Made by a program: the position numbers and the translations under genes
Notes under the pieces: model-generated
What the model was told of the DNA's origin: nothing
Database searches by the model: none
The model's input: the letters and a program-made list of their open reading frames with translations, nothing else
Origin: Arsukibacterium sp. UBA3155
GTDB taxonomy: Bacteria; Pseudomonadota; Gammaproteobacteria; Enterobacterales; Alteromonadaceae
DNA: 64,000 nt
Direction: 5' to 3'
Assembly: GCA_002364615.1 (NCBI GenBank)
Contig: DEYP01000028.1
Location: 125,645-189,644, forward strand
Part shown: positions 37,447 through 59,333 of the stretch, one piece after another
Layout of the letters: each line of letters opens with the position of its first letter
How positions within the stretch are numbered: position 1 is the stretch's first letter

Positions 37447-38975
37447 CAGATTCTGACAAAATAGTGTCATCAGACGCTGATTACATGGCAGCCGTAGATC
37501 TTGGCTCCAATAGTTTTCATATGGTTATTGCCCGGGTAATTGACGGCTCACTGCAGTTATTGCACCGCGAAAAGCAAAAAGTGCAATTAGCGGAAGGCCT
37601 GAATGATGAGCTGGTGCTTAGCGAAGAAGCTATTGAGCGGGGCCTGCAGGTACTGGCCCAGTTTGCCGATACATTACAGCCATTCGCTCCCAATGCCGTT
37701 CGGGTTATTGCTACCTATACCCTGCGCCGTGCCCGCAACTCAGCGACGTTTTTACGCCGGGCCAAGGTGGTGTTTCCGTTTCCGATTGAAGTCATTTCCG
37801 GCCAGGAAGAAGCCCGCTTTATTTATCAGGGGGTGGCTCATTTTGAGCATTTCGGTAATAAACGACTGGTTATTGATATTGGTGGCGGCAGCACTGAATT
37901 TGCCATTGGCGAAGGCCTGCAACCCTTACGGTTAAGCAGCCGCAATATGGGCTGCGTCAGCTACGGTCAGAGTCATTTCAGCCAGGGCAAGATCAGCCCG
38001 CGCCGGTTTGAGCGTGCTGTGCTGCAAGCAGAGCAGGAACTTGAACCGATCGTCAGCAGTTTTCGCAACGCCGGCTGGCAACAAGCGGTCGGCACCTCGG
38101 GTACCGTAAAAACCATTAAAGATGTCATTTCGGGGCTTGGCTGGAACAGCACCAGTTTGCGACTGAACGATTTAACGGCCTTAAAACGGCACGTGTTGCA
38201 ATACGATAATGCCAGCGAACTGGAGCTGGCCGGCTTAACAGACGATCGAAAGCTATTGCTTTGTCCCGGACTGGCGATATTAATTGGTGCATTTAACATG
38301 CTGCAAATTGACGAAATGGTCTATGTCGACGCTGCCCTGCGCGAGGGTGTGCTGTATGAAATGAGTGACCGGCTGCAACACCACGATATTCGTGAGCATA
38401 CTATCAGCAGTATGATGCGCCGCTACACGGTTGATGACGCCCAAACACAAAGGGTACAACACACCGCGCAAGCGCTATTTAGCCAGGTGCAATCTGCCTG
38501 GCAATTATCAGATGACGATGGCTTGTTACTCAGCTTCGCCTGCAGAGTTTATGAAATTGGTCTGCATATAAATTCTTCCGGGATCCAGAAGCACTCTGCC
38601 TACATTTTGCAAAATGCTAACCTGCCCGGCTTTAATCAGGAGCAACAGTTGTTGCTGGCGTGCCTGGTTCGCTTTCACCGCCGTAAAATCCGCGCCGACG
38701 AACTGCCTATCTTTAGTCTTTACCAATTACCGCAAGTCATTAACCTGCTGGTATTACTGAGGCTTGCGGTGTTACTTAACCAGAAGCGACGCGACAGTTT
38801 CGTACCTGAATTTACCGTAAGCGCGGGTGCGCAGCAGCTGCAACTGGTGTTACCATCAGCATGGCTGGCGCAGCAAATGGTGCTATCTGCCGATTTACAG
38901 CTGGAGCAGAAAGCATTGAAAAAAATCGCGTTTCGGCTCGACTGCCCCGGTTTAATTGATGTCGCCAGCGGCTAG
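37443..38975 (+). CDS. ppx: Exopolyphosphatase / guanosine pentaphosphate phosphohydrolase
   Basis: Releases phosphate from polyphosphate ends; the family also includes pppGpp hydrolases (GppA). It has 510 residues. The start is TTG 37443, overlapping the ppk TGA as TTGA; it gives a 14-residue lead before MAAVDLGSNSFHMVIARV that matches the length in E. coli Ppx. Sugar-kinase-like ATPase motifs are VDLGSNSFHM and VIDIGGGSTEFAIG. The C-terminal HD-like helical domain (about 310-500) is present. Co-transcription with ppk is certain from the overlap. Confidence 0.94.
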   Translation: MTDSDKIVSSDADYMAAVDLGSNSFHMVIARVIDGSLQLLHREKQKVQLAEGLNDELVLSEEAIERGLQVLAQFADTLQPFAPNAVRVIATYTLRRARNSATFLRRAKVVFPFPIEVISGQEEARFIYQGVAHFEHFGNKRLVIDIGGGSTEFAIGEGLQPLRLSSRNMGCVSYGQSHFSQGKISPRRFERAVLQAEQELEPIVSSFRNAGWQQAVGTSGTVKTIKDVISGLGWNSTSLRLNDLTALKRHVLQYDNASELELAGLTDDRKLLLCPGLAILIGAFNMLQIDEMVYVDAALREGVLYEMSDRLQHHDIREHTISSMMRRYTVDDAQTQRVQHTAQALFSQVQSAWQLSDDDGLLLSFACRVYEIGLHINSSGIQKHSAYILQNANLPGFNQEQQLLLACLVRFHRRKIRADELPIFSLYQLPQVINLLVLLRLAVLLNQKRRDSFVPEFTVSAGAQQLQLVLPSAWLAQQMVLSADLQLEQKALKKIAFRLDCPGLIDVASG

Positions 38976-45118: not shown

Positions 45119-46462
45119 TTATTTTACTTTAAACTTGGCTTTTTTGACGGGGGCGGCACTGACATTACCCAATACCAGCTCGGCGGGTATGGTAAACGAA
45201 AAGCTGCTGCCCCGGCCGGGCTCGCTGAAAATCATCAGCTGGCTGTTGTGGCGTGACAACACATGTTTAACGATAGCTAAACCAAGGCCGGTACCACCGG
45301 TATTGCGGGCCCGCGCCTGATCCACCCGGTAAAACCTTTCGGTTAAGCGCTTTACATGATGCGGCGCTATGCCCTCGCCGGTATCATTAACTGCAAACAC
45401 AGCCCGCTGATGCTGACGTTGCCAGCTGACACTTATCTCGCCCCCTGCCGGCGTATACTTAATGGCATTGGTCACCAAATTAGAAAAAGCACTGCGTAAT
45501 TCTTCAGTAACTCCGGATACTTTTAATTCGGGATCAATACTAAAACTGATTTGGTGCTGTTTTTCGTGATTCAGCGCCTGCGCTTCCTGCTCTAGGGTCG
45601 CCAGCATGGCGGGGACATCAACTTCATCATCTAACTGCACCCGGGCTGACGCCTCAATTCGTGATAAGGTGAGGAGTTGCTGCACTAAACCATCCATCCG
45701 TTTAGTTTGCTCCAGCATAACAGTATGAGCCTTTTGCCACATAGCTGGCTCGGGTAAGCGATTAGCGTCAATTACTTCCAGGTAGCCCTGCAACACCGTT
45801 AAGGGTGTGCGCAGCTCATGCGAAACATTGGCCACAAAGTCTTTGCGAATTTGTTCTAATTGTTTCAGCTGAGTGATATCGCGGATGATTAGCAAGTACT
45901 GTTCGCTGCCGTATGGCATCATCTTGCATTCCAGCACCACACTGTTGCTGCCTTTAGCACTGATTTCCAACGGCTGCTGAAACTGCTTTTGCTTTAAGAA
46001 GCTCTGAAATTCGGGGTTGCGGACCAGGTTATCAATCCGCTGGCCTTCATCACTGGGCCAGCGTAAGCCCACCAGCATTTGTGCCAGTTTATTACACCAG
46101 ACAATAGTCCAGTCGCTGGTCAGTACAACAACCGCTTCCGGCAGTGCTTCTGCGCCATCACGAAAACGCCGCACCAAGGTTCGTAACTCTTTACGTTTTC
46201 TGCGCTCGCGCCGTTGCTGATAATAAATGCCATCGAAAATTTGCTGCCAGAAACCCTTGCCTTCCGGCGGCGTCAGCTTTCGGTCATGCCAGAGCCATTT
46301 AGTAATTAAAAACAGGTGGTTATAGTTAGATGCCAGCAAATAAAAGCTCAGCAGTAACATAAACAGCATGCTCTGACCAAAAGGCCAACCCACTAGCCCT
46401 GCCAGAGTATACAAAAGGCAGACCTTGCTAAAAATCTTCCCTTTAGAAAGCTGTGGCCGCAT
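45119..46462 (-). CDS. phoR: Phosphate-regulon sensor histidine kinase PhoR
   Basis: 447 residues. N-terminal membrane segments (about 14-50), a charged linker, a PAS domain (about 95-190, AEALPEAVVVLTSDWTIVWCNK), HisKA dimerisation domain with the phosphorylated His in VANVSHELRTPLTVLQGYLEV, and an ATPase domain with NAIKYTPAGGEI, DTGEGIAPHH and GGTGLGLAIVKHV. The PhoR layout matches E. coli. It controls PhoB together with PhoU and Pst. It starts 5 bases after phoB. Confidence 0.96.
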   Translation of the reverse strand: MRPQLSKGKIFSKVCLLYTLAGLVGWPFGQSMLFMLLLSFYLLASNYNHLFLITKWLWHDRKLTPPEGKGFWQQIFDGIYYQQRRERRKRKELRTLVRRFRDGAEALPEAVVVLTSDWTIVWCNKLAQMLVGLRWPSDEGQRIDNLVRNPEFQSFLKQKQFQQPLEISAKGSNSVVLECKMMPYGSEQYLLIIRDITQLKQLEQIRKDFVANVSHELRTPLTVLQGYLEVIDANRLPEPAMWQKAHTVMLEQTKRMDGLVQQLLTLSRIEASARVQLDDEVDVPAMLATLEQEAQALNHEKQHQISFSIDPELKVSGVTEELRSAFSNLVTNAIKYTPAGGEISVSWQRQHQRAVFAVNDTGEGIAPHHVKRLTERFYRVDQARARNTGGTGLGLAIVKHVLSRHNSQLMIFSEPGRGSSFSFTIPAELVLGNVSAAPVKKAKFKVK

Positions 46463-46467
46463 AAAAC

Positions 46468-47154
46468 CTACTTAGCAGAAAAGCGATAGCCGGAGCCTCG
46501 CACCGTTTGTACCAGCTTATCATGCCCGGCGATAGAAATCGCTTTGCGCAACCTTCGAATGTGCACGTCTACCGTGCGATCTTCAACATAGACGTTGGTG
46601 CCCCAAACATGGTCAAGCAGCTGCTCACGGCTATACACCCGCTCCTGGTGAGTCATAAAGAAATGCAACAGGCGGAATTCAGTTGGTCCCATATCCAGCG
46701 GCTGCTGCTCGGCCATTACCCGGTGCGCTACCGGATCCAGCTTCAGGCCCTGCACTTCTATCACTTCATCCAGACTGGTCGGCGATACCCGGCGGATAAC
46801 CGCTTTTATTCGCGCCATCAACTCTTTCGGTGAAAACGGCTTGGTAACGTAATCATCAGCGCCAACTTCGAGACCACGCACTTTGTCTTCTTCCTCGCCG
46901 CGGGCGGTGATCATGATAATCGGGATATTACGGGTCAAATCGTGCTGCTTCATTTTCTTGGCAAACTGGATTCCGCTGCCGCCCGGGATCATCCAGTCCA
47001 GCAACACTAAATCAGGATAGGGTTCAATCAGTTGGTTAACCGCGCTGGGGAAATCTTCGGCGGTAATGGCCTGATAGCCATTTTGCTCCAACACAAAACA
47101 CAACATGTCGCGGATTGGTGCTTCATCTTCCACCACCAGGATCTTTCTTGCCAT
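46468..47154 (-). CDS. phoB: Phosphate-regulon response regulator PhoB
   Basis: OmpR-family activator of the Pho regulon. I start at ATG 47154 ([18 protein letters not shown]), which aligns with E. coli; a GTG four codons upstream is less likely. 228 residues. Receiver domain has the phospho-acceptor in [15 protein letters not shown] and [30 protein letters not shown]. The winged-helix domain has [46 protein letters not shown], almost identical to E. coli PhoB, so it should bind the standard PHO box. A PHO box lies in its own promoter. Confidence 0.97.
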
Positions 47155-47217
47155 AAGGTTCACCACATTCTGTTAGCCGGTTTGAGTGCCGGACGGTTCT
47201 AACTGTCTCTGCTACTT

Positions 47218-47251
47218 AGTATTGCTGCAGTTTATGACATTTTTATGAAAA
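47218..47251 (-). promoter_or_regulatory. PHO box and promoter of phoBR
   Basis: On the minus strand TTTTCATAAAA (47241-47251) then ATGTCATAAAC (47230-47240), 8/11 and 9/11 matches to the PhoB half-site, followed after 6 bases by the -10 AATACT (47218-47223). The same PHO-box-to--10 layout is found before the porin and pstS, which supports all three. Autoregulation of phoBR is established in E. coli. Confidence 0.75.
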
Positions 47252-47343: not shown

Positions 47344-47365
47344 CTGCATGACAGCTAAATGAATT
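47344..47365 (-). promoter_or_regulatory. Possible second PhoB site upstream of phoB
   Basis: On the minus strand AATTCATTTAG then CTGTCATGCAG, in 11-bp phase. The second half-site is good and the first weak. It lies about 190 bases from the phoB start, in the shared divergent region. Confidence 0.3.
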
Positions 47366-47415
47366 TTTTTTGACACTCTTAACACCAGACCATAGCCAGT
47401 CACTGCTGCCAATGG

Positions 47416-47459
47416 CTGTCACTCAAGCGTCGTATTTATGTAATAAAAGCGTCATTCGC
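47416..47459 (+). promoter_or_regulatory. Candidate tandem PhoB half-sites before the lipoprotein/TonB receptor genes
   Basis: Four consecutive 11-mers in phase on the plus strand: CTGTCACTCAA, GCGTCGTATTT, ATGTAATAAAA and GCGTCATTCGC. The first and last keep the GTCA core, and the middle ones are degenerate. They end 62 bases before the lipoprotein start. No convincing -10 follows at 5-6 bases, so Pho control is suggested mainly by position and phasing. Confidence 0.4.
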
Positions 47460-47521
47460 CTGCTGTAGGGTGCCAACAACTTAATTGGCAACACCGATAA
47501 CAACTCAATGGAGAGATGGTA

Positions 47522-50209
47522 ATGGCTTTACGCAAACTGTTAAAACTCAGCGCGATAGCGTCAGCATTAATACTGGCTGGCTGCGGTGGCGACTTAGTCG
47601 TTAATGCTGGTGGCACTACTAACGGCGGCGGTAATGGCGGTGGTGGTGGCACTCCTCCACCAGTCACTTCAGATTGTCCGGCCTTTGCTACTGAAGGCGA
47701 CAGTCTGGCCGGGGTTAACCTGACGGTATGTGAAATCAGCGGTACTATTACCAGTGACACCCGTCTGAGCAATGATATTGCCTGGTCTTTAAGCGGCAAA
47801 GTTACCGTCGGTAACGACAATGCGGATAATTCAACCCTGACTATCGAACCCGGTACTTTTGTATTTGGTAAAAGCGGCGCCGATTATCTGGTTGTAGCCC
47901 GAGGTTCAAAAATTCAGGCAGTCGGCACCGTCGACGCGCCAATCGTGATGACTTCAGTTAACGACATGCTGGGATTATCCGACAATGAGTCAACTGCCGA
48001 ATGGGGTGGTTTGGTGTTATTAGGTAACGCACCAAGTAATAAGTGTGATCAGGCATCACTGGCAACCTGTGAAATTCAGGCTGAAGGTGAAGCCGGTCCT
48101 TACGGTGGTGCTGACCCGGAAGATGACAGCGGTGCGTTGCGTTATGTACAAGTGCGTTACGCGGGTTTTGAAGTCATTCCGGACAATGAGCTTAACGGTA
48201 TTACCTTTGCCGGTGTAGGCAGCGGCACTGACGTTGAATACATTCAGGTACACAACAACCTGGATGACGGCGTTGAGTTTTTTGGCGGCACGGTAGATGC
48301 TAAATATGTGGTATTAACTGGCAACCGCGATGACTCATTGGACTGGGCAGATGGCTGGACTGGCCGCATGCAGCACGTGTTGGTCCGTCATAACCCGAAC
48401 AATACTAAAGCGAACCGCGGCATTGAAGCGGATAACCAGTCAGGTAACTTTACTGCTACCCCGGTGTCAAAACCACGCATTGCCAATATGACTATCGTCG
48501 GTAATAACTTTGACGGTGAAGATGATTCTGAAGGCGTATTGTTGCGCGCAGGCACCGCGGCTGAATTATATAACTTTATTGTTACTGGTCCGGCTGGCAT
48601 GGGTGAATGTTTTGAAATTAACTCCGCGGAGTCAGTAACGAACGCTGGCAATGGCGAAATTGTCTTCCGCAACTCTATTCTTGATTGCCCTGAGCCTACC
48701 AAGAACTCTGTAGATGGTGCAGATAATATCACCCTGGATGCTAACGCCTGGTTCCGTGCTCAGCCCGGCAACATTATTGGTGACGCTTTATTGGGTGGCT
48801 ATATTCCTGCGCCAAACTCTCCTGCACTGGGCAATGGTTACAACGTCGCAAACAACGTTGACAGCTGGTTTGACAATGTTGATTACATTGGTGCCTTTGA
48901 CGGTGAAGAAGACTGGACTGTAGGCTGGACCGTTGGACTTCACCCGGAAGATGACTTAGCTGCCTGCCCTGCCGGTACCAGCGAAGTTAACAGCTTATCA
49001 GGTCGCTTAAACTGTCAGTTAACCGGTGACATTACTGCCAACGTGACCCTGGCTGCTGGCGCTGACTACGTGCTAAGTGGCCGGGTACGGATTGGTGTAG
49101 ATAACACCACCGCCGCCACCCTGACCGTTGAACCAGGTGTGCGGATTTATGGTAAATCAGGCGCTGACTTCCTGGTCGTTACCCGCGGCTCAAAAATTGA
49201 AGCTAACGGTACCGCAGCCAACCCTATCGTGATGACCTCAGTACAGGACATTATCGGTTCGCCAACCGCAGCCGGCCAATGGGGCGGTTTAGTATTGCTG
49301 GGTAAGGCACCAAGCAACAAGTGTAACCAGGGAGATTTAGCCAGCTGTGAAATTCAGGCAGAAGGTGAAGCCGGTCCCTATGGTGGTGCAGTAGCCAACG
49401 ACAACAGCGGTACCTTAAATTACGTAGTAGTTAAGCATGCTGGTTTTGAAGTTATCCCGGATAACGAATTAAACGGTATTACGTTTGCCGGTGTAGGTTC
49501 TGGTACTAAGTGCTCTAACATCCAGGTACACCAGAACGTTGATGATGGTATCGAAATGTTCGGCGGTAGCGTCAGCTGTAAAAACGTGGTGTTAACCGCT
49601 AACGGCGATGACTCAGTAGACTGGGCCGATGGCTGGAACGGTAAACTGCAATTCGTGCTGGTTAAACATGCTGCCGATGGCGCCAAGGCTAACCGCGGTA
49701 TTGAAGCAGATAACCAGTCTGGCAATTTCACCGCCACCCCGGTATCCAACCCAACCATCGCCAACTTGACCATTATTGGTAACAGCTTTGACGGTGACGA
49801 TGACTCAGAAGGTGTATTACTGCGCGCTGGTACCAATGCTCAGCTGGCCAACTTCGTTATCACCGGCCCCGAGACCATGGGCGAATGTCTGGAGTTCGAT
49901 TCTAACGAGACCAAAGCATTAGCTGCAGCAGGTTCACTGACCATGACACACTCTGTTATTGCCTGTGCAGAGCCGTTCAAGGGTGACCTTGGTAATGGTA
50001 CCACCACCGAACAGTGGTTCCTGGGACAAACCGGTAACAGTGTTGCAGCTAACCAGGCTGCAGTACTGGACGGCATTTACACTATCGATGCCACCACCCC
50101 AAAAGACATGTCAGCACTGGATAGCTTCTTTGAAGCGGTTAACTTCATCGGTGCAGTAGAAGCCGGCAATGACTGGACTGCTGGCTGGACAGTTGGCTTA
50201 GAAGACTAA
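47522..50209 (+). CDS. Large surface lipoprotein with tandemly duplicated beta-helix-like domain
   Basis: 895 residues from ATG 47522, which has GGAG seven bases upstream; ATG 47516 is too close to it. Lipobox LILAGC is followed by a Gly-rich linker. The rest is two copies of about 400 residues offset by 426: copy 1 starts CPAFATEGDSLAG, copy 2 CPAGTSEVNSLSG. Shared blocks include GGLVLLG, CEIQAEGEAGPYGGA, AGFEVIPDNELNGITFAGVG, DSLDWADGW/DSVDWADGW, KANRGIEADNQSGNFTATPV and DDSEGVLLRAGT. Asp-rich loops suggest calcium binding and a right-handed beta-helix. Paired with a TonB receptor downstream and flanked by Pho genes; I infer substrate capture at the cell surface. Confidence 0.85.
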   Translation: MALRKLLKLSAIASALILAGCGGDLVVNAGGTTNGGGNGGGGGTPPPVTSDCPAFATEGDSLAGVNLTVCEISGTITSDTRLSNDIAWSLSGKVTVGNDNADNSTLTIEPGTFVFGKSGADYLVVARGSKIQAVGTVDAPIVMTSVNDMLGLSDNESTAEWGGLVLLGNAPSNKCDQASLATCEIQAEGEAGPYGGADPEDDSGALRYVQVRYAGFEVIPDNELNGITFAGVGSGTDVEYIQVHNNLDDGVEFFGGTVDAKYVVLTGNRDDSLDWADGWTGRMQHVLVRHNPNNTKANRGIEADNQSGNFTATPVSKPRIANMTIVGNNFDGEDDSEGVLLRAGTAAELYNFIVTGPAGMGECFEINSAESVTNAGNGEIVFRNSILDCPEPTKNSVDGADNITLDANAWFRAQPGNIIGDALLGGYIPAPNSPALGNGYNVANNVDSWFDNVDYIGAFDGEEDWTVGWTVGLHPEDDLAACPAGTSEVNSLSGRLNCQLTGDITANVTLAAGADYVLSGRVRIGVDNTTAATLTVEPGVRIYGKSGADFLVVTRGSKIEANGTAANPIVMTSVQDIIGSPTAAGQWGGLVLLGKAPSNKCNQGDLASCEIQAEGEAGPYGGAVANDNSGTLNYVVVKHAGFEVIPDNELNGITFAGVGSGTKCSNIQVHQNVDDGIEMFGGSVSCKNVVLTANGDDSVDWADGWNGKLQFVLVKHAADGAKANRGIEADNQSGNFTATPVSNPTIANLTIIGNSFDGDDDSEGVLLRAGTNAQLANFVITGPETMGECLEFDSNETKALAAAGSLTMTHSVIACAEPFKGDLGNGTTTEQWFLGQTGNSVAANQAAVLDGIYTIDATTPKDMSALDSFFEAVNFIGAVEAGNDWTAGWTVGLED

Positions 50210-50216
50210 GCAAATC

Positions 50217-50250
50217 GGCACTGCCGGGGCAACCCGGCAGTGCCTTTTGT
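50217..50250 (+). terminator. Attenuating terminator between the lipoprotein and TonB receptor genes
   Basis: GGCACTGCCGGG-GCAA-CCCGGCAGTGCC followed by TTTTGTT: a 12-bp GC-rich stem 7 bases after the stop. It likely lets only part of the transcript continue into the receptor gene, giving more lipoprotein than receptor. Confidence 0.85.
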
Positions 50251-50311
50251 TATTCCGACATTCGATATACCAAGACTAGTATCCGTTTAAAGCTGATAGG
50301 ACAACGTTCAG

Positions 50312-52972
50312 ATGAGCAGCATTCAAAAATTTAGTTTCAGCCGTGTTGGCCGCAGTGTATTGCTGGCCTTAGGCACGACCACTGCGATGATGTCGTTAAA
50401 TACCATTGCACAAGAAACGCCAGAACCCACTCAAGCCGAGCAGGAAGAGGTAGAACGTATTTCTGTCTCCGGTCGCCTGATGAGCTCTGCTGCCTCTGCT
50501 GCTGCAGAACGTCGTGAGCAAGCCTATGTAGCAGAAGTACTCGGTATGGAGCAAATTTCCCGTGCCGGTGACAGTAACGCTGCCGCTGCTTTGCGTCGGG
50601 TAACGGGTTTAACCCTGGTAAAAGACAAGTTTATTTATGTTCGCGGCTTGGGTGAGCGTTATTCCAGTACCTTATTAAATGGTGCCATGGTGCCCAGTCC
50701 GGACCCGACCCGTAACGTTATTCCGCTGGACATGTTTCCGGCGGGCATTATTGAAAGCCTGGTTGTACAAAAAGCCTATTCTCCTGAGCTACCCGCAGCC
50801 TTTGGTGGTGGTAATGTCAATATTCGCACCACGGCTATTCCGCTGCAAACCAGTTTTAATGTCTCAGTGGCTACCGGCTATAACAGCCTGAACAGCGACG
50901 ATGGTTTTGATTATGCTGGTGGCGGTGATGACTGGCGTGGTAAAGACGATGGCACCCGGGGTATATCACCGGTGCTGGCCGATGCTCAGCAACAATTTGG
51001 CGTGCTGACTCCCATTAATATCGCCGAGGGCTTAGGTGGCATTAATGCCGGCAATCTGGCACAGGCAGAAACCATTGTGCGTGAGCTCGGTACTGCATTT
51101 AACCGTGATATTGATATTAGCCGAACCACCGTAAAACCTGATTTCGACGCCAGTGCCTCCTTTGGCACCCGCTTTGATCTGACAAAAAATATTGTGTTTG
51201 GGTTGATGACTGGCTTAAGTTACGATCGCTCTACCCAGAATATTGAAGAGCAGGAACGTTACTATTCTGTCTCAGGCGACAGCCTGGTGCCGTTGAATCG
51301 TTACGATGATATTAAAGGTACTGAGCATCAGGTAAAACTGTCTGGCATGCTTAACTTTGGTTTAGAGCTGGGTATCGATCACCGCATCGAAACCTCCACC
51401 ATTTATCTGAGTGACACCAAAGATGAAATAAAGATTAAAAACGGCGACAGTATTGAAACCATTAACGAAACCAACCGGTTTAATACTGATACCAGCATTT
51501 TGTATGAAGAACGCACTATGCTGAGTAATCAGCTACGTGGTAAGCACAACTTCCCGTACCTGATGGATTTGGCAGTAGACTGGCAGTACACCGATGCCAA
51601 AGCACGTCGCAACGCGCCAGGCGAAGTGGAATATCGGTATCTGAATGAGACGCAGGCTGATGGCTCAGTATTCTCATTTTTACGCCGCAACCAAAACGCC
51701 GTTAATTACAGTTTCAGTGATATGAAAGATAACACTGAAAACCTGAGTTGGAATGCCAACTTACCGCTCACGCTGGGCAAAGCAGAAATGACTTTCAGTG
51801 GCGGTTATAGTTACTTCGAACGTAGCCGTAACGCACAAACTGACCGCTTTAACTTTGATACGGTGGGTTACAGTCTGCAGCAACTGTCTGGTCGCTTTTC
51901 AGAGATTTTCTCTGACAGCGCTATTTCAGACCCGGCCAACGGCTTTAAAATTTCTAACGTGACCACTCAGGCTGATGATTATCTGGCAGCCCAGATGATC
52001 GACGCGGGTTACGGTGCCATGGAGCTGACGTACGACTATCTGCTGCGGTTAAATATCGGTGTGCGCTATGAAGACTTTAAACAAATCTCACTACCGCTGC
52101 GGGCAGATGGCGCCATAAGCGGCAATGTAACTGACTCTATTTTGATGGAGGATGGCTTTTATCCGGCGTTGTCATTAACCTGGTTTGTTAACGACGACTT
52201 ACAGGCGCGCTTTGGCTATAGCAAAACCGTGGTTCGCCCAGATTTACGTGAAGTGACCCCGGTATTGTATGTTGACCCGCTAACCGACTTTAAAGTAACC
52301 GGTTTTTCAGGCCTTAAAAGCACTGACATAAGCAGTTTTGATGCCCGCTTAGAGTGGTATTATGACAGCAGCAACTACAGTATTGGTCTATTCTATAAAG
52401 ATCTGGAAAACCCAATTGAAGCCATTGAATTATCAGGGTCAGACGGTAACTTGCTGATGTCATTTCGCAATGCCCAGAGCGGCAAGGTGTATGGCGCAGA
52501 AGCGGAGTTTTTACAGCAGCTGAATATGTTCAGTGGTGATTTTGGCAAGTTTGCCAATAACTTTTTTGTTGCCGGTAACCTGACAGTCAGTGAGTCTGAA
52601 ATCAGCATTCAACCCTTTCCGGGTGCCGATTTAACCAACCTGAAGCGTGGTTTAAGCGGTCACTCGAAGTATGTTGCTAACCTGCAACTGGGCTTTGACT
52701 CTGACAATAACCAGCATAATGCCACCCTTACCTATAACGTATTCGGTAAGCGGATAGCCTTTGCCGGGGTTAACGACAAAGACGATGCCTTTGAGCAGCC
52801 ATTTAATTCACTGGATTTCACCTATGGTTACACGCCGCTTGAGAATATGACCGTAAAACTGGGCTTGAAAAACTTACTGGATGAAGAAGTGGAAATTTTG
52901 CAGCAGGGTGAAATTCTGCAGCAGCGCACTGAAGGTCAGAGCTACAGTTTAAGCTTCTCTTATAAATACTAG
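50312..52972 (+). CDS. TonB-dependent outer-membrane receptor
   Basis: Active outer-membrane importer, 886 residues. Signal peptide is about 1-34 (ending IAQE). A TonB-box-like stretch EEVERISVSGRL is followed by the plug domain (AAAALRRVTGLTLVKDKFIYVRGLGERYSSTLLNGAMVPS, IIESLVVQKAYSPELPAAFGGGNVNI). The long beta-barrel (about 250-886) ends in the aromatic SYSLSFSYKY. The plug resembles the group of receptors with RGLGERYS..LNG. The ligand is unknown. Encoded with the duplicated lipoprotein and sandwiched between phoB and a phosphate porin, so a phosphorus-containing ligand is the leading guess. Confidence 0.9.
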   Translation: MSSIQKFSFSRVGRSVLLALGTTTAMMSLNTIAQETPEPTQAEQEEVERISVSGRLMSSAASAAAERREQAYVAEVLGMEQISRAGDSNAAAALRRVTGLTLVKDKFIYVRGLGERYSSTLLNGAMVPSPDPTRNVIPLDMFPAGIIESLVVQKAYSPELPAAFGGGNVNIRTTAIPLQTSFNVSVATGYNSLNSDDGFDYAGGGDDWRGKDDGTRGISPVLADAQQQFGVLTPINIAEGLGGINAGNLAQAETIVRELGTAFNRDIDISRTTVKPDFDASASFGTRFDLTKNIVFGLMTGLSYDRSTQNIEEQERYYSVSGDSLVPLNRYDDIKGTEHQVKLSGMLNFGLELGIDHRIETSTIYLSDTKDEIKIKNGDSIETINETNRFNTDTSILYEERTMLSNQLRGKHNFPYLMDLAVDWQYTDAKARRNAPGEVEYRYLNETQADGSVFSFLRRNQNAVNYSFSDMKDNTENLSWNANLPLTLGKAEMTFSGGYSYFERSRNAQTDRFNFDTVGYSLQQLSGRFSEIFSDSAISDPANGFKISNVTTQADDYLAAQMIDAGYGAMELTYDYLLRLNIGVRYEDFKQISLPLRADGAISGNVTDSILMEDGFYPALSLTWFVNDDLQARFGYSKTVVRPDLREVTPVLYVDPLTDFKVTGFSGLKSTDISSFDARLEWYYDSSNYSIGLFYKDLENPIEAIELSGSDGNLLMSFRNAQSGKVYGAEAEFLQQLNMFSGDFGKFANNFFVAGNLTVSESEISIQPFPGADLTNLKRGLSGHSKYVANLQLGFDSDNNQHNATLTYNVFGKRIAFAGVNDKDDAFEQPFNSLDFTYGYTPLENMTVKLGLKNLLDEEVEILQQGEILQQRTEGQSYSLSFSYKY

Positions 52973-53030: not shown

Positions 53031-54140
53031 TTAGAAATGGTATTGGGCTCTTACCCCGAAACCAATAGGCTCCTCATTGATACCTGAAGCTGTATCAACA
53101 TCAGTAAACACAATATTACTCATAAAACGGATATTACTACTTAAGTAATAGTTAACGCCAACGGTCAGATTTTTCTGCTCGCCACCCATAACAACACCGT
53201 CATTAAGGTCAGTAACAGAGTATCTGGCGGCAACTTCAATTGCGCCTTTTGCTGAGCTTGGTTTAATACCACTGAATGAGCCGTTTTTGTATGAACGCGA
53301 TTCTCCAGTTATCACATAACTTGCCTGCATGTGGTATCCGCTAAAGCTAAGATCCTGCACTGCAGAGGATGTATTCACTGATAATGCTTCAGCTTCAAAT
53401 GACCAGGCGCCATTAATTGCTGCAAACTCCAGTCCGGTAGTGATCAGATTATCAACGTTATTGAGCGTTCCGGTGTCGATAAGACGAATGGCCGGATCAA
53501 TTCTTAACTCAGGGCGGTCCCGAAAACGCAAGCTGTTATAGTCGCCTAAATCCTGATACACCACTGCCGCACCAAAGTGGTACTGAATATTATTGATTTT
53601 GGGGTGATAAACCAGACGTTGCGCCAGGCCCATGCTGTCGTCCTTTCCAGCATCGCTTTCAGTATTCATGGTTCTGCCAAAAGCCATCGAGCCTGAAGTA
53701 ATATCACCAAAGGTTTTATCAAAACGAACGCCTAACTTACGGTCAGGCGTAATCACTGTTGAACCACTTGCCCGCTCCATAAAGGTAATAGAGTTTGAGC
53801 TCGTCAGGGTATTAAGGCTAAACGGCAACCGTTGGTGGCCAATAGTCAATGAACCACCGGCGAATTTTGTCCGCAGGTTTACATCGGTAGCACTCGCGTC
53901 ACCACCTTCAGCAAAATCATATTCAATGACAAAGCGCCAATCTGATGAGAAATTACCTTGTAATCCCATGCGGCCCCGACGAACATTAACGCCATTACCA
54001 AATTCTGTTTGGTCATCATTGACAAACCCAGCATCGAGGTGCAGGCGACCTCGTGGTTCTACTTCAATATCTGCCGCCAGAACGTTTCCGGCAATTGAGG
54101 CCAAAAGTATCGCAACAGTGATTTTGCTCATTGAGTTCAT
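53031..54140 (-). CDS. Phosphate-selective porin O/P family (OprP-like)
   Basis: 369 residues, signal peptide about 1-22 (NVLAADIEVEP). The sequence RGRLHLDAGFVNDDQTEFGNGVNVRRGRMGLQGNFSSDWRFVIEYDFAEG is typical of OprP/OprO porins, which form 16-stranded trimers with an arginine/lysine-lined pore for phosphate or pyrophosphate. It ends with the aromatic GVRAQYHF of outer-membrane barrels. SD AAGGA lies 6 bases before the ATG. Strong tandem PHO boxes upstream make PhoB control near certain. Whether it prefers Pi or longer phosphates is unknown. Confidence 0.93.
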   Translation of the reverse strand: MNSMSKITVAILLASIAGNVLAADIEVEPRGRLHLDAGFVNDDQTEFGNGVNVRRGRMGLQGNFSSDWRFVIEYDFAEGGDASATDVNLRTKFAGGSLTIGHQRLPFSLNTLTSSNSITFMERASGSTVITPDRKLGVRFDKTFGDITSGSMAFGRTMNTESDAGKDDSMGLAQRLVYHPKINNIQYHFGAAVVYQDLGDYNSLRFRDRPELRIDPAIRLIDTGTLNNVDNLITTGLEFAAINGAWSFEAEALSVNTSSAVQDLSFSGYHMQASYVITGESRSYKNGSFSGIKPSSAKGAIEVAARYSVTDLNDGVVMGGEQKNLTVGVNYYLSSNIRFMSNIVFTDVDTASGINEEPIGFGVRAQYHF

Positions 54141-54188: not shown

Positions 54189-54262
54189 GTATATTTCAGC
54201 TTAATGACACTTTAATGACAGCGTGGCATTTTTATGACGCTAAAATGATGTTTTTATGACTG
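54189..54262 (-). promoter_or_regulatory. Tandem PHO boxes and promoter of the OprP-like porin
   Basis: Proximal box on the minus strand: CTGTCATTAAA (54211-54221) then GTGTCATTAAG (54200-54210), 5 bases, then -10 TATACT (54189-54194). Upstream, three more half-sites in exact 11-bp phase: CAGTCATAAAA (54252-54262), ACATCATTTTA (54241-54251) and GCGTCATAAAA (54230-54240), separated from the proximal box by 8 bases. This is the strongest PhoB target in the window. Confidence 0.88.
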
Positions 54263-54394: not shown

Positions 54395-55180
54395 TCAACC
54401 GTAGCGCCCGGTAATATAATCTTCAGTTCGCTTATTAATAGGGTTGGTAAAGACTTCGTTGGTGGCACCAATTTCTATTAAATCACCCAGATGGAAAAAC
54501 GCAGTGCGGTCTGAGACCCGGGCGGCCTGTTGCATATTGTGAGTAACGATAACGATAGTAAAGTTTTGCTTTAACTCATCAATCAGTTCTTCAATAATAG
54601 AAGTTGCAATAGGGTCAAGCGCCGAACACGGTTCATCCATGAGTATCACATCCGGGCTGACCGCGATACTGCGGGCGATACATAACCGCTGCTGCTGGCC
54701 ACCGGATAAGCCGGTGCCAGGCTGATCCAGCCGATCTTTCACTTCATTCCATAAGCCGGCGCGGCGTAAACTGGACTCCACCACATCGTCCAGCTCTGAC
54801 TTGCGACTGGCCAGGCCATGTAAACGCGGGCCATAAGCAATATTTTCATAAATTGATTTTGGAAACGGGTTCGGCTTTTGAAATACCATGCCAACCTGAG
54901 CGCGCAATTGCACAACGTCCAGTGACGGGTCATAGATATCGCGGCCATCCATTTTAATACTGCCGGTTACCCGGCAGATATCAATGGTATCGTTCATCCG
55001 GTTTAAACAACGTAAAAACGTTGATTTGCCGCAACCTGAAGGGCCGATAAAGGCAATAACTTCGTTTTCCATTACATCCAGATCAACACCATGGATAGCT
55101 TCATTGTCGCCGTAAAAAACCCTGACATCACGTGCTGTCATTTTTACCTTGCCCATGCTGTTTGTCTCAATCGCTGTCAT
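54395..55180 (-). CDS. pstB: Phosphate ABC transporter ATPase PstB (system 2)
   Basis: I start at ATG 55180 ([19 protein letters not shown]), with GCGGA upstream; a GTG eight codons earlier is possible. 261 residues. Walker [45 protein letters not shown], signature [16 protein letters not shown], Walker [22 protein letters not shown], and the end [10 protein letters not shown]. It is closer to E. coli PstB ([21 protein letters not shown]) than is the system 1 copy. Last gene of pstS-C-A-B. Confidence 0.96.
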
Positions 55181-55248
55181 CGCTAAATCCGCCGTAGTTA
55201 CCACTTATTCAGTTAATTTTCTGGAGTTGGCTGCGCTGCGCGTCAGAC

Positions 55249-56640
55249 CTACCAGCGCTTTTCATATTTTTTACGCAGCCAGATGGCTAGCCCGTTTAAT
55301 GTCAACATCAACGCCAGCAATACGATAATGGCGGCAGAAGTACGGGCTTCAAAAAAGTTACGAAGCTCATTGCCCTGCCACAAATATATTTGTACTGGTA
55401 AGGCGGTCGATTGCTCGAACGGGCCGGCCGGTATTTGTGAGACAAAAGACTTCATGCCAATAAGTAATAATGGTGCTGTCTCACCTAAAGCCTGGGCCAC
55501 ACCAATGATGGCGCCAGTAAGAATACCCGGGATAGCCAGTGGCAACACATGATGAAAAACAGCCTGCATTTTAGACGCCCCCAGCCCTAAAGCTGCCTGG
55601 CGAATGGATGGCGGAATGGCCTTTAAGGTAGAGCGTGTGGCAATAATCACGGTCGGTAAGGTCATTAAGCTTAATACCAGGCCGCCAACAATGGGCGCCG
55701 ACATCGGCAGTTTAAACCAGCCGATAAACACCGATGCACCCAATAAGCCAAATACAATGGACGGCACCGCAGCCAGGTTATTAATATTCACCTCCACTAA
55801 GTCGGTGAATTTATTTTTGGGCGCAAACTCTTCCAGATAAATGGCGGCGGCAACGCCCATTGGTACCGCCAGAAAAATCACCACCAGCATCATATATAAC
55901 GAACCGACAAAAGCACCCGCCAGGCCAGCAGATGCTGGCGAACTGCGGGAGTCGGGATTAATAAACAAGGCAAAACTAAAGCGATTTTCAATAATGCCCT
56001 GCGCTGACAGCATTTCAACCCATTCCCGTACTTTCGGGCTAAGCTGCTGCTGCGAGTCAGGCAGACTGCGGTCAATATTACCTTTTAACCAGACATCAAT
56101 ATTCGCATCAGTAAGCAAATTTACCGTTTTGGTCTGGCCAATGATTTCGGGGTTTTCTATTACCATATCGCGTACGGCGTAGCGCTCACCTGAGGTCACT
56201 ATCCGCGCGGCGTCACGACGATACTGGCGCTCTTGAGCTTCCGGTATGACCTTATTCAGGCCATCCAGAATTAAGCGGTTAAAGTTAACCATGCCCACTT
56301 CAGTTTGCCATTCAATAAAACGCTGCCGAAATTCATTGTCTGTTTCATCCGCACCTTGCACTGGTTTTTCGCTGATACTAATCACTTCAGGGTCAAAGTA
56401 AATATCAAGCGTAATGTGCGCCTGCCAGAATGCAGGGACACCTTTGGCAAAAATATTAACAAACAAAATAGCGACCAGGGTCAGGCTAATAATGACAGCG
56501 CCCAGACCAACGCCTTTAAACAGCTTTTCCTGACGGTGCCGACGAGCCAGTGACGCCGCCACTTGTTGCTGGGTTTTACTTAGTAACACCGGTTCAACAG
56601 CGACATCTTTGTCGGTGGAGCTCAGTTTGTTATCAGTCAT
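55249..56640 (-). CDS. pstA: Phosphate ABC transporter permease PstA (system 2)
   Basis: 463 residues, longer than the usual 290-330 because of an N-terminal cytoplasmic tail, TM1 (about 42-64) and about 170 residues of extracytoplasmic sequence (DUF3333-like: FDPEVISISEKPVQGADETDNEFRQRF...). The permease core then begins with AGLAGAFVGSLYMMLVVIFLAVPMG and contains NINNLAAVPSIVFGLLG and the EAA loop LGLGASKMQAVFHHVLPLAIPGI. It starts 3 bases after pstC. The extended form is common in marine gammaproteobacteria. Confidence 0.94.
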   Translation of the reverse strand: MTDNKLSSTDKDVAVEPVLLSKTQQQVAASLARRHRQEKLFKGVGLGAVIISLTLVAILFVNIFAKGVPAFWQAHITLDIYFDPEVISISEKPVQGADETDNEFRQRFIEWQTEVGMVNFNRLILDGLNKVIPEAQERQYRRDAARIVTSGERYAVRDMVIENPEIIGQTKTVNLLTDANIDVWLKGNIDRSLPDSQQQLSPKVREWVEMLSAQGIIENRFSFALFINPDSRSSPASAGLAGAFVGSLYMMLVVIFLAVPMGVAAAIYLEEFAPKNKFTDLVEVNINNLAAVPSIVFGLLGASVFIGWFKLPMSAPIVGGLVLSLMTLPTVIIATRSTLKAIPPSIRQAALGLGASKMQAVFHHVLPLAIPGILTGAIIGVAQALGETAPLLLIGMKSFVSQIPAGPFEQSTALPVQIYLWQGNELRNFFEARTSAAIIVLLALMLTLNGLAIWLRKKYEKRW

Positions 56641-56643
56641 AAG

Positions 56644-58041
56644 TTACTCGTATTGTTCCCGATATTTACGCACAACAACCAACGCTACAATATTCAGCAG
56701 CAAGGTAATGACAAACAGGGTTAAGCCCAATGCAAAAGCGACCAGGGTCTGAGGGCTGGCAAAGTCGTTGTCGCCGGTTAGTTGGTTAACGATAGACACC
56801 GTTATCGTCGACACGGCCTCAAAGGGATTGGCAGTCAATGTCGGGCTGTTGCCCGCTGCCAGCACCACAATCATGGTTTCACCAATAGCCCGACTGGCAG
56901 CAAGCAGCACCGCACCCACTATGCCAGGCAGCGCAGCGGGCAGCACCACCTTGCGAATGGTTTCAGATTTCGTCGCGCCCAGGCCAAGCGAGGCATCCCG
57001 AAGCGCCTTGGGCACCTGGGTAATAATGTCATCAGAGAGTGACGAGATAAAAGGTACAATCATTATGCCCATCACCACGCCCGCGGTGAGTGCAGACGTC
57101 GCACGGATAGTCAGGCCAATACTGGCGCCAAAATCGGCTAGAAATGGCCCTACCGTCACCAACGCAAAGAAGCCGTAAACAATCGTTGGAATACCAGCAA
57201 GCACTTCAATAATGGGTTTGGCGGTTGCGCGAAAGTTGGCCGGCGCATATTCTGCCAGGTAAATCGCGACCATTAAACCAAGGGGAATTGCGACCAGCAA
57301 CGCGATACCCGCAATCATCATCGTACCTGAAAGCAACGGCAGCAAGCCAAAACTTCCCTGACTTCCGGTCAGCGAACCTTCACTCACTCCTGTCGTCGAA
57401 AAGCGTGGGTTCCAAGTCGTACCCAGGAAAAAATCTGCTGGCGGTATAAAACTGAAGAACTTGATGGTTTCACCCACCATTGATAGCACAATGCCGATAG
57501 TGGTTAAAATGGCAACAGTGGAGCAGATTATAAGCACAGCTTTAACGGTGCGTTCGATTTGATGGCGCGCCCGCAAATGAGGCTGAATGCGTTTAAAACT
57601 GAAAAACAAACCCGCAGCGGCTATCGCTGCCATCAGACCAGTTAACAGTAGAGCACTACTGGTTTGTAACTGTTGCATGTACGCCGCAGCGTCGAGCTCC
57701 CACTGCGCAGCCTCTGCCACCACACCAAAATTAGTGGCAAGATTGCTGATCCGGCGCATTATCACATCGGCAGTTAAGCCTTCTGCGGCCAACGCTTCTG
57801 CAGGCAATTGGGCAGCCACCATGCCGTTAATGACGCCGGGGGACAACAGTGTCCACAATACCAGAATGAAAAACGCCGGGATAACGGCCCACAAGCCGAC
57901 CATCATGCCGTAATGATGCGGTCTGGAGTGCATTTTTTGCTGCGGGTTAACTATCGCGACCTTGCGACTGCGCACCATGCCAAGCTGATAGCCTATCGCC
58001 ATCAATGCCAGCAGCAGTACAATTAACGAAAAATTACTCAT
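56644..58041 (-). CDS. pstC: Phosphate ABC transporter permease PstC (system 2)
   Basis: 465 residues from ATG 58041 (MSNFSLIVLLLALMAIGYQLG), with GGAG five bases upstream; an in-frame ATG six codons earlier lacks a ribosome site. Eight predicted helices: two extra N-terminal ones plus the six-helix permease. Core motifs are PIIEVLAGIPTIVYGFFALVTVGPF and LGLGATKSETIRKVVLPAALPGIVG. Compared with the PstC of system 1, this copy lacks the beta-propeller-like insert. It is separated from pstS by 169 bases with a hairpin. Confidence 0.95.
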   Translation of the reverse strand: MSNFSLIVLLLALMAIGYQLGMVRSRKVAIVNPQQKMHSRPHHYGMMVGLWAVIPAFFILVLWTLLSPGVINGMVAAQLPAEALAAEGLTADVIMRRISNLATNFGVVAEAAQWELDAAAYMQQLQTSSALLLTGLMAAIAAAGLFFSFKRIQPHLRARHQIERTVKAVLIICSTVAILTTIGIVLSMVGETIKFFSFIPPADFFLGTTWNPRFSTTGVSEGSLTGSQGSFGLLPLLSGTMMIAGIALLVAIPLGLMVAIYLAEYAPANFRATAKPIIEVLAGIPTIVYGFFALVTVGPFLADFGASIGLTIRATSALTAGVVMGIMIVPFISSLSDDIITQVPKALRDASLGLGATKSETIRKVVLPAALPGIVGAVLLAASRAIGETMIVVLAAGNSPTLTANPFEAVSTITVSIVNQLTGDNDFASPQTLVAFALGLTLFVITLLLNIVALVVVRKYREQYE

Positions 58042-58141
58042 GGTTGCTCCATTGCCCAATCCGGGTTATCCCACAGGGATAAATACTTCTTAATAAGCCG
58101 CGCCAGCTTAACGCGCCTATATTGCAGTTTTATTACAGTGT

Positions 58142-58163
58142 CTGTCATATTACTGAAATAGAA
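58142..58163 (+). repeat. Inverted copy of the pstS PHO-box sequence, downstream of pstS
   Basis: CTGTCATATTACTGAAATA (58142-58160, plus strand) is identical over 19 bases to the PHO box upstream of pstS (59294-59312, minus strand). The two copies are inverted and flank the whole pstS gene. No -10 follows this copy, so it is unlikely to be a promoter. Confidence 0.8.
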
Positions 58164-58164
58164 A

Positions 58165-58186
58165 AAGAGGACCGCGGGGTCCTCTT
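58165..58186 (-). terminator. Partial terminator between pstS and pstC (system 2)
   Basis: AAGAGGACC / GGTCCTCTT, 9-bp stem with a 4-base loop, followed on the minus strand by TTT. It lies 25 bases after the pstS stop and inside the operon, so it likely raises pstS mRNA over pstCAB. Confidence 0.7.
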
Positions 58187-58210
58187 GCTTCTTTTAGCTT
58201 ACTAAAACAG

Positions 58211-59239
58211 TTATAGCGACTTTTTGGCGCGAATGTTGGCGATAATAGTGGCGCGCTCATCATCATCCAGTGGAATTAAGCCTGCGGCTTCCAGCGGACT
58301 GCCAAAGCCTGAAGCAGCGTCAGAGACAAAGTACTCAGCGAATTCCTTCAAACCCGGAATAACGCCAATATGTTCACCCTTCACGTAGAAAAACAGCGGA
58401 CGTGATACCGGGTAAGTGCCGTCAATAATATTGTCAACGGTCGGCTCAACACCACTTACTGTGGCTACTTTTATGCGGTCACGGTTTGCTTCATAAAAAC
58501 TTAAACCAAACACACCAAGCGCATTTTTCTGCGCCTGCAACCGGGCCAGTGTTTCAGTGTAATCACCTGCAATTTCTACCACGCTGCCATCGGTACGCAT
58601 CGCTAAACAAAAATTGTTTTGCTCTGCTTTTGGCAGTGCCTGCACTTCTGCAAAAGTTTTACAGCCATCCAGTATTACTTTTTCTTCGTACACTTCACGG
58701 GTACCGTGGTTTGAACCCGGAATAGCCAGCAAAATGGCCTGATCGGGTAAAGACTTATCAATTTGCTGCCAGTTAGTGTAAGGGTTGGCCACCATTTTGC
58801 CATTTTGCGGCACTTGTGCCGCCTGAGCCAGAAACACATGTTCAGGTTTTAATTTAAAGATGCCGGCATCAATCCGCGAAGCAAACACAATACCGTCATA
58901 ACCAATTTTCACTTCGATAATGTTGTTAACGCCATTGGCATTACACGCTTCTACTTCAGCCGGGCGAATGGCTCGTGAAGAGTTAGCAATATCGATGGTG
59001 TTGGTGCCAACACCCTGACAAAATTGACGTAAGCCACCTGAAGAACCACCTGAGCCCACGACCGGAGTACGGAACTGGGCAAAGTTATTACCAAATTCTT
59101 CAGCAGCAATTGAAGCGAACGGCAACACGGTTGACGAGCCAGCCACCTGCACTGTATCGCGGTTGGCATGCGCCTGTCCTGCAAACGCCAGGCTAACGGC
59201 AGAAGCAACAATCAGTTTAGTAAGCTTATTCATTTTCAT
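58211..59239 (-). CDS. pstS: Phosphate-binding protein PstS (system 2)
   Basis: I start at ATG 59239 (MKMNKLTKLIVASAVSLAFAGQAHANR, a clear signal peptide cleaved after HAN or AHA); the longer ORF extends into the promoter. 342 residues. Phosphate-contact motifs are VAGSSTVLPFASIAAEEF, PVVGSGGSSGGLRQFCQGVG, DIANSSRAI, IGYDGIVFAS and PGSNHGTREVYEEKV. Two Cys pairs suggest disulfides. It is not the E. coli-type PstS but the PtxB/SphX-like 'PstS' common in marine bacteria. First gene of pstS-C-A-B, with a PHO box upstream. Confidence 0.94.
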   Translation of the reverse strand: MKMNKLTKLIVASAVSLAFAGQAHANRDTVQVAGSSTVLPFASIAAEEFGNNFAQFRTPVVGSGGSSGGLRQFCQGVGTNTIDIANSSRAIRPAEVEACNANGVNNIIEVKIGYDGIVFASRIDAGIFKLKPEHVFLAQAAQVPQNGKMVANPYTNWQQIDKSLPDQAILLAIPGSNHGTREVYEEKVILDGCKTFAEVQALPKAEQNNFCLAMRTDGSVVEIAGDYTETLARLQAQKNALGVFGLSFYEANRDRIKVATVSGVEPTVDNIIDGTYPVSRPLFFYVKGEHIGVIPGLKEFAEYFVSDAASGFGSPLEAAGLIPLDDDERATIIANIRAKKSL

Positions 59240-59278
59240 TGGGTCGATCCTCAGTATGAGATGCATTTGATGCTGCAC

Positions 59279-59312
59279 AGTATGCGATACTTTTATTTCA
59301 GTAATATGACAG
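59279..59312 (-). promoter_or_regulatory. PHO box and promoter of pstS (system 2)
   Basis: On the minus strand CTGTCATATTA (59302-59312) then CTGAAATAAAA (59291-59301), 6 bases, then -10 CATACT (59279-59284). The start codon lies 40 bases downstream. It has the same geometry as the phoB and porin sites. Confidence 0.82.
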
Positions 59313-59333
59313 CTCACTCCAGACGACGGACAT

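Follow-up and report, generated by a model that had tools for sequence, protein, structure and literature searches.

In a 64,000-nucleotide stretch of the genome of Arsukibacterium sp. UBA3155 (contig DEYP01000028.1, positions 125,645 to 189,644; hereafter the window), a gene for a surface lipoprotein lies divergent from phoB and phoR, which are on the minus strand, and is followed after a gap of 102 bases by the gene for a TonB-dependent receptor (TBDT). On the 3′ side of the TBDT gene are a Porin_O_P gene and then pst-type genes, all on the minus strand (Table 1), the latter named here pstB (ATPase), pstA and pstC (permeases), and pstS (binding protein). A preliminary description of this DNA, made from its letters, had placed the lipoprotein directly before a TBDT and between phoB and an OprP-like porin, and matches to TIGR02154, to the Pfam Plug and barrel models, and to Porin_O_P bear out that layout. 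We propose, with a probability of roughly 0.68, that the lipoprotein and TBDT act as a PhoB-controlled pair in which cation-loaded β-helix modules capture a phosphorus compound that the receptor imports with TonB energy.

Lipoprotein modules, family, and predicted fold

The lipoprotein open reading frame (ORF; 47516-50209, plus strand) encodes 897 residues from its first ATG and 895 from its second (47522). The motif LAGC followed by glycine is consistent with a lipobox of outer-membrane type, and its Cys21 is constant in 33 of 33 members aligned. The preliminary description saw in the 895-residue protein two copies offset by 426 residues; the halves are indeed 56% identical (240 of 430 columns), and the equivalent residues D248/D674 and E252/E678 are spaced by exactly 426.

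Relatives occur in 94 of the 120 genomes searched from the order of Henriciella; twelve of these loci were fetched, eight of them with a readable lipobox. The Caulobacterales protein L144 has 512 residues, LAGC at positions 17-20, Asn38, and adjoining TBDT and gspD genes, which together are the published marks of ElpS (PMC2996285). The window halves are 32% and 35% identical to L144 (E 8e-58 and 1e-57), with the first matching its residues 1-491 and the second its residues 78-491, and the two TBDTs are 30% identical. With homology across the whole module, a lipobox, and an adjoining CC0171-type TBDT, the window lipoprotein is, as judged from sequence, almost certainly a member of the ElpS family. 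Two ElpS traits, neither of them defining, are absent, namely a neighboring type II secretion system (T2SS) and a single module of ~50 kDa: no T2SS gene is among the genes identified around the window pair.

In Caulobacter, the gene order is ElpS (CC0170), the TBDT CC0171, and gspC-N, and ElpS is a surface lipoprotein produced on phosphate starvation (Le Blastier 2010, PMC2996285). The window pair, compared through L144, shares with this system the homologous lipoprotein and TBDT, their order, the LAGC lipobox, and a link to phosphate starvation. In contrast, ElpS has one module, its gene precedes T2SS genes, and cc0171 is reported to be constitutive, whereas the window lipoprotein has two modules and lies beside phoB, pst, and Porin_O_P. 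In Flavobacterium johnsoniae, the related FI was the most phosphate (Pi)-induced gene and the most abundant exoprotein of the study, FI and its TBDT were both strongly Pi-induced, and FII adjoins a TBDT in a phoBR gene cluster with oprP (Lidbury 2020, PMC8115612). FI and FII (PUSIII, PUSIV) are reported to be 31-36% identical to ElpS (PMC8115612). By the published description, the Flavobacterium systems resemble the window pair in their Pi induction, TBDT partner, and phoBR cluster with oprP, and differ in belonging to another phylum, in the type IX secretion system-type and S41 peptidase neighbors of PUSIII, and in an oprP that is not Pi-induced. The preliminary description knew of no assigned function for this lipoprotein type; that statement holds for the molecular function, but the type itself is ElpS/FI, and the induction and location of relatives are on record (PMC2996285, PMC8115612).

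The family carries one, two, or three modules per protein. With a hidden Markov model of the domain derived from the two window halves and L144, 164 modules were compared, of which four belonging to the paralogues L151-L153 were set apart. In all 160 others, including those of L144 and of genome G027 (see below), E188, D201, D248, D249, E252, D270, D274, E302, N322, and N351 never vary; D271 is retained in 154 and R127 in 157. Neither D248 nor E252 is present in the four paralogue modules. A spacing of 22 residues separates D248 from D270, D249 from D271, and E252 from D274, which likely corresponds to one turn of a β-helix, the length of which we infer, so that these acids would stack as a ladder. 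When 70 of the 164 modules were placed in a tree, those at the start and at the end of a given protein often clustered together by clade, and the label "first" had to change 13 times, each change being forced by branches with good support, a pattern that indicates either many independent tandem duplications or homogenised copies. Within the Rheinheimera group, first modules are nearest to other first modules, and conversion is therefore not ongoing there; the single module of Rheinheimera D18 clusters with these first modules, which points to loss.

The lipoprotein falls outside every Pfam, NCBIfam, and PDB sequence family, and against Pfam and NCBIfam it gave only sub-threshold matches (X8, 0.014; a spore-coat regulator model, 0.059). 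An AlphaFold2 model (mean pLDDT 88) has two mainly-strand domains, with a pTM of 0.55 that leaves their relative pose unsure. Foldseek matched this model to β-helix proteins, with PL6 alginate lyases first (E 1.1e-5) and the pectate lyase Pel9A weaker (E 9.1e-3), and the five best matches have TM-scores of at most 0.24 in the two-domain pose and identities of 9-11%. The modules are thus predicted to adopt the right-handed β-helix fold of pectate and alginate lyases or polygalacturonases. Weak Pfam Beta_helix matches were found in 7 of 33 members (best 4.3e-6).

The same prediction raises the alternative of an enzyme: the lipoprotein would be a hydrolase or lyase that cleaves a polymer containing phosphorus at the cell surface, with the TBDT importing the product. 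The Beta_helix matches combined with invariant acids also lend themselves to this idea, and Lidbury et al. proposed binding or hydrolysis after polygalacturonase modelling (PMC8115612). We consider it unlikely, given the low TM-scores and identities of the structural matches and an invariant set that includes acids and neither Lys nor His, so that no catalytic set could be matched.

The TBDT has both a plug and a β-barrel, by Pfam and in its model (pLDDT 82), which is that of an ordinary TBDT. Haem and siderophore receptors topped its fold search, with 10-14% identity among the fifty matches listed; this level of identity shows the general fold only, and an iron-receptor reading was set aside. 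A surface lipoprotein with a TBDT partner is also found in the SusCD and BtuBG-type systems of Bacteroidota (BtuBG: PMC10404256), which the window pair likely resembles in the way it works. It does not belong to SusCD, however: its lipoprotein has a predicted β-helix, and no SusD Pfam domain was matched in it or in family members.

Following the lipoprotein stop codon, a hairpin with a perfect 12-bp stem and the loop GCAA precedes TTTTGTTA. Its register is preserved across the Rheinheimera group, and in an alignment of 27 sequences (the window and 26 Rheinheimera-group loci) two-sided compensatory changes occur in 4 of 7 predicted pairs. Perfect stems of at least 8 bp follow the lipoprotein gene in 31 of 68 loci, a count made without a chance control. 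The preliminary description called this element a terminator; the hairpin is real and covarying, but several relatives have stems with no T-run, and its role as a terminator is putative. A leaky terminator and a protector of the message end are both conceivable, and either may yield more lipoprotein than receptor.

Pairing with the receptor and PHO boxes

Scanning genome contigs yielded 113 stretches with 97 relatives, and the best 80, representing 75 distinct loci, were kept as the basis of the counts over 75 loci. The nearest named loci among them are from Arsukibacterium indicum and Arsukibacterium sp. UBA5043 (lipoprotein 96%). A TBDT gene adjoins the lipoprotein gene in 74 of the 75; the sequence of the exception, L099, stops at the lipoprotein, and in L104 and L105 the TBDT is on the 5′ side. 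Among 60 genomes of relatives, with the window's own genome included, lipoprotein (E ≤0.001) and TBDT (E ≤1e-60) either occur together, in 28, or are both absent, in 32, which supports the earlier suggestion of an outer-membrane pair acting together.

In the Rheinheimera group, phoB is beside the pair in 30 of 31 loci, with the remaining one cut by a contig end. Within up to 10 kb of available sequence on each side of the pair in the 44 other loci, phoB-like genes were identified at 9 loci, one or more of phoB, pst, phytase, and PHO4 at 11, T2SS genes at 10, and ExbD/TonB at 6; these numbers rest on clustering with Pfam-checked representatives and are therefore lower bounds. A Colwellia gene (L076) called phoB by BLAST fits the sortase-system regulator TIGR03787 best and was removed from the phoB count. 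Neighbors in the loci without Pho genes are varied and include an ammonium transporter, a sulfate permease, and an ABC exporter. Consistent location near iron genes, which would have told against a phosphorus role, was not seen among identified neighbors, although not every ORF was annotated.

Five of the nine phoB-like loci outside the Rheinheimera group are from SAR86. Two of these five regulators were tested (L087 and L093), and for both, PhoB models score best yet stop short of the 296-bit cut-off, at 248 and 239 bits. The SAR86 loci carry a PHO4 transporter and a phytase and look like a phosphorus acquisition island in a marine lineage. In L085, a PHO4 phosphate transporter gene is directly 5′ of the lipoprotein gene, with a second TBDT and the phytase 3′ of the pair; L085, L093, L094, and L101 all combine the lipoprotein-TBDT pair with phytase, PHO4, and a further TBDT.

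The loci with T2SS genes include Hyphomonadaceae and SAR86, and in several the T2SS is directly 3′ of the pair. This proximity fits a different role, in which the displayed lipoprotein is clipped off and stabilises or activates an extracellular alkaline phosphatase, with the TBDT taking up the released compound or only loosely linked. ElpS secretion or overproduction was accompanied by raised alkaline phosphatase activity in the supernatant (PMC2996285), and the window's own genome has PhoX and a T2SS GspN gene (T2SSN), each on another contig, which rules out PhoX as a neighbor of the pair. However, the strict genomic pairing is with the TBDT, and the sole phosphatase among annotated neighbors (not every ORF was annotated) is the phytase of some SAR86 loci. 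A phosphatase helper therefore seems improbable to us.

Facing the lipoprotein gene are four in-phase PHO half-sites in 11-bp steps (CTGTCAC-GCGTCGT-ATGTAAT-GCGTCAT), where the preliminary description had also seen half-sites in phase. None of 3000 first-order Markov resamplings reached their four-site score of 20/28, a measure picked after the site had been seen; taken by itself, the best half-site pair (10/14) is not significant (p 0.11). A further half-site run faces phoB (window 47347-47387, minus strand, score 19/28) beside the phoB box. A genome-wide search with a pattern likewise written after the site had been seen found 7 places versus 5 for the backwards pattern, and thus no net enrichment. 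Four of the seven are in the window (two at the lipoprotein, one at the porin, one at ppk), one is a box above the 95th percentile before an ORF, and two are inside ORFs.

In the loci kept, 27 distinct sites preceding phoB, pstS, pstC, and porin genes served to train a PHO matrix, which was then applied to 300 bases of upstream sequence, with a threshold of 12.3 that is the 95th percentile of 817 other ORFs. Boxes above threshold precede 44 of 71 lipoprotein genes (four of the 75 loci have no usable upstream sequence or ORF call), compared with 1 of 70 TBDT genes and, by construction, 41 of the 817 other ORFs. Reverse-strand boxes in 28 of the 71 are expected from divergent phoB boxes; at loci without a divergent phoB, 16 of 41 lipoprotein upstreams exceed the threshold versus 3 of 41 on the reverse strand. 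Fisher p values for the excess (3.6e-32 and 5e-10) overstate independence because the loci are akin. The 16 are spread over Aliikangiella, Idiomarina, Glaciecola, Alteromonas, Colwellia, Henriciella, Hyphomonas, Glycocaulis, Parvularcula, and SAR86, and 36 of the 44 boxes fall 75-100 bases 5′ of the start used. Among Caulobacterales genes readable by script (30 loci tried), the threshold is passed by 4 of 7 two-module upstreams, with 0 of 7 reversed, and by 1 of 7 one-module upstreams. The conserved upstream boxes are those of a putative Pho regulon member, and the pair is very probably under PhoB control, in line with the phosphate-starvation control suggested earlier. In Caulobacter, the PhoB regulon includes the T2SS and various TBDTs (2024 paper, PMC11208175).

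Genome G027, from the same genus, retains phoB (92.7%) with its M20 hydrolase (92%) and TAG (90%) neighbors, and the phoB-side lipoprotein of this genome has one module and is 31% identical to that of the window. Its TBDT is 37% identical, and the pair has the opposite orientation relative to phoB. The G027 module clusters with that of Pseudidiomarina (L106) on a long branch. A different pair of the same kind therefore fills the same regulatory place. Divergent from the G027 pair is a DUF3450-ExbB-ExbB-ExbD-TonB-TPR cluster (pair and cluster together, L154 5616-15350), and PHO boxes score 19.6 on the lipoprotein and 19.8 on this cluster. The window's own genome, searched for a counterpart, has a single DUF3450-ExbB-ExbB-ExbD-TonB cluster with no PHO box above threshold.

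A PHO-boxed ExbB/ExbD/TonB cluster beside the pair fits import, and argues against a TBDT that works outward or as an anchor, exporting the lipoprotein or holding it at the surface in the manner of Oar. Such a role could explain why ElpS reaches the surface without the T2SS (PMC2996285), and protein secretion in Myxococcus requires Oar, itself a TBDT (PMC6434023). Also against this role, ElpS is still produced without cc0171, a result that concerns production with localisation aside (PMC2996285). We regard export or anchoring as very improbable.

Elsewhere in the window, polyphosphate kinase (ppk) and Ppx genes, identified by Pfam, are at 35311-38975 on the plus strand, with a PHO-like box, CTGTCACAAAAATGCCAT, 54 bases 5′ of ppk (score 21.1); the Pho block may take in polyphosphate metabolism as well. 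On contig C10 of the same genome, an Oar-like TBDT (CarboxypepD_reg and barrel; L161 705-3833) has a borderline PHO box (13.4).

Table 1 Features of the lipoprotein-TBDT locus, in window positions.
Feature	Position	Strand	Basis or remark
phoR	45119..46462	-	NF008235, 579.9 bits (cut-off 390)
phoB	46468..47166	-	TIGR02154, 370.6 bits (cut-off 296.2)
PHO box of phoB	47234..47251	-	score 23.3
Four in-phase PHO half-sites (two PHO boxes) facing lipoprotein gene	47416..47455	+	sequence, score
ElpS-type surface lipoprotein, 895 aa, two tandem predicted β-helix modules	47522..50209	+	start possibly 47516
Putative lipobox LAGC, Cys21 then Gly (no Asp+2)	47573..47584	+	sequence
Module 1, residues 47-474	47660..48943	+	domain HMM
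Acidic ladder of module 1: D248, D249, E252, D270, D271, D274	48263..48343	+	conservation
Module 2, residues 476-895	48947..50206	+	domain HMM
Acidic ladder of module 2: D674, D675, E678, D696, D697, D700	49541..49621	+	conservation
Hairpin, 12-bp stem, T-rich tail, covarying in relatives	50217..50244	+	sequence, alignment
TBDT, CC0171 type, 886 aa	50312..52972	+	Pfam Plug 1.5e-8, barrel 1.9e-23
Porin_O_P (OprP-like) porin	53031..54140	-	Pfam 1.7e-58
PHO box of porin	54204..54221	-	score 22.7
pst-type block: ABC ATPase, two permeases, binding protein	54395..59317	-	families by Pfam

Proposed capture and import of a phosphorus compound

In the proposed mechanism, phosphate shortage would lead PhoB to bind the half-site array, and lipoprotein and receptor would be transcribed, with the conserved hairpin probably setting the lipoprotein above the receptor. 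The lipoprotein would travel to the cell surface, on the outer side of the outer membrane, and there its β-helix modules would hold a ligand at the stacked Asp/Glu ladder, most likely through bound divalent cations, with two modules offering two ligand sites. TonB energy would then drive import of this phosphorus-containing ligand through the receptor, leaving phosphatases of the periplasm and PstSCAB to complete uptake. This model draws on the homology, anatomy, duplication, PHO-box footprint, strict pairing, invariant acidic residues, and predicted fold computed here. By analogy with published work on relatives, phosphate-starvation induction and surface location may hold for the window pair as well; PhoB binding in the host, metal use, the ligand, hand-over to the receptor, and stoichiometry are what the model proposes.

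Several points weigh against this interpretation. At 23 of the 44 non-Rheinheimera loci, none of the searched phosphorus, T2SS, or TonB genes is within 10 kb. The paralogues L151, L152, and L153 have no nearby Pho genes, no TBDT neighbor by BLAST, and no D248 or E252, and the wider superfamily is therefore not all Pho-linked; in L151 (6904-13006), the paralogue adjoins a tricorn-like S41 peptidase, and PUSIII of F. johnsoniae also holds an S41 peptidase (PMC8115612). All 71 lipoprotein upstreams stay below the 99th percentile of the PHO matrix, a level that most phoB and pstC upstreams attain, and the lipoprotein boxes are thus weaker than most boxes of those two genes. The ElpS-type L144 upstream scores 4.0, and that of PhoX in the window's own genome scores 11.2, both below threshold. 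The metal site comes from spacing and conservation rather than coordinates, and single-sequence and profile searches of the PDB found no solved relative of the lipoprotein and hence no ligand evidence. In Caulobacter, cc0171 is expressed alike in rich and poor media, its deletion spares ElpS production as described above, and no change in intracellular phosphate was detected on transfer from rich to poor medium, although the authors allow that the method was possibly insensitive (PMC2996285). The link between ElpS and raised phosphatase activity also fits a helper role. The literature searched, in which most subscription papers fell outside coverage, names no ligand for ElpS.

A more specific version of the capture-and-import model, taken jointly, is tentative. 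Here a phosphorylated polymer or ester would be caught by the cation-loaded acidic ladder and passed to a dedicated TonB receptor, modules would have been raised to two or three many times independently for capture capacity, and some genomes would have their own PhoB-controlled ExbB/ExbD/TonB motor.

Significance for the ElpS/FI family

The ElpS/FI lipoprotein type and its induction by phosphate starvation in Caulobacter and Flavobacterium were already known. New here are the pairing of lipoprotein and TBDT in the same 28 of 60 genomes, the exchange of the pair at the G027 phoB locus with its PHO-boxed ExbB/ExbD/TonB cluster, the repeated multiplication or homogenisation of modules, and a single acidic ladder in 160 of 164 modules. 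Across two phyla, ElpS and FI stand out among the proteins made on phosphate starvation. The pairing, the in-place swap, the PHO boxes in several genera, and the invariant ladder lead to a concrete model of metal-dependent capture and TonB-driven import. If true, this model would give bacteria of marine and fresh waters, SAR86 included, an energised phosphorus route beside the passive phosphate porin.

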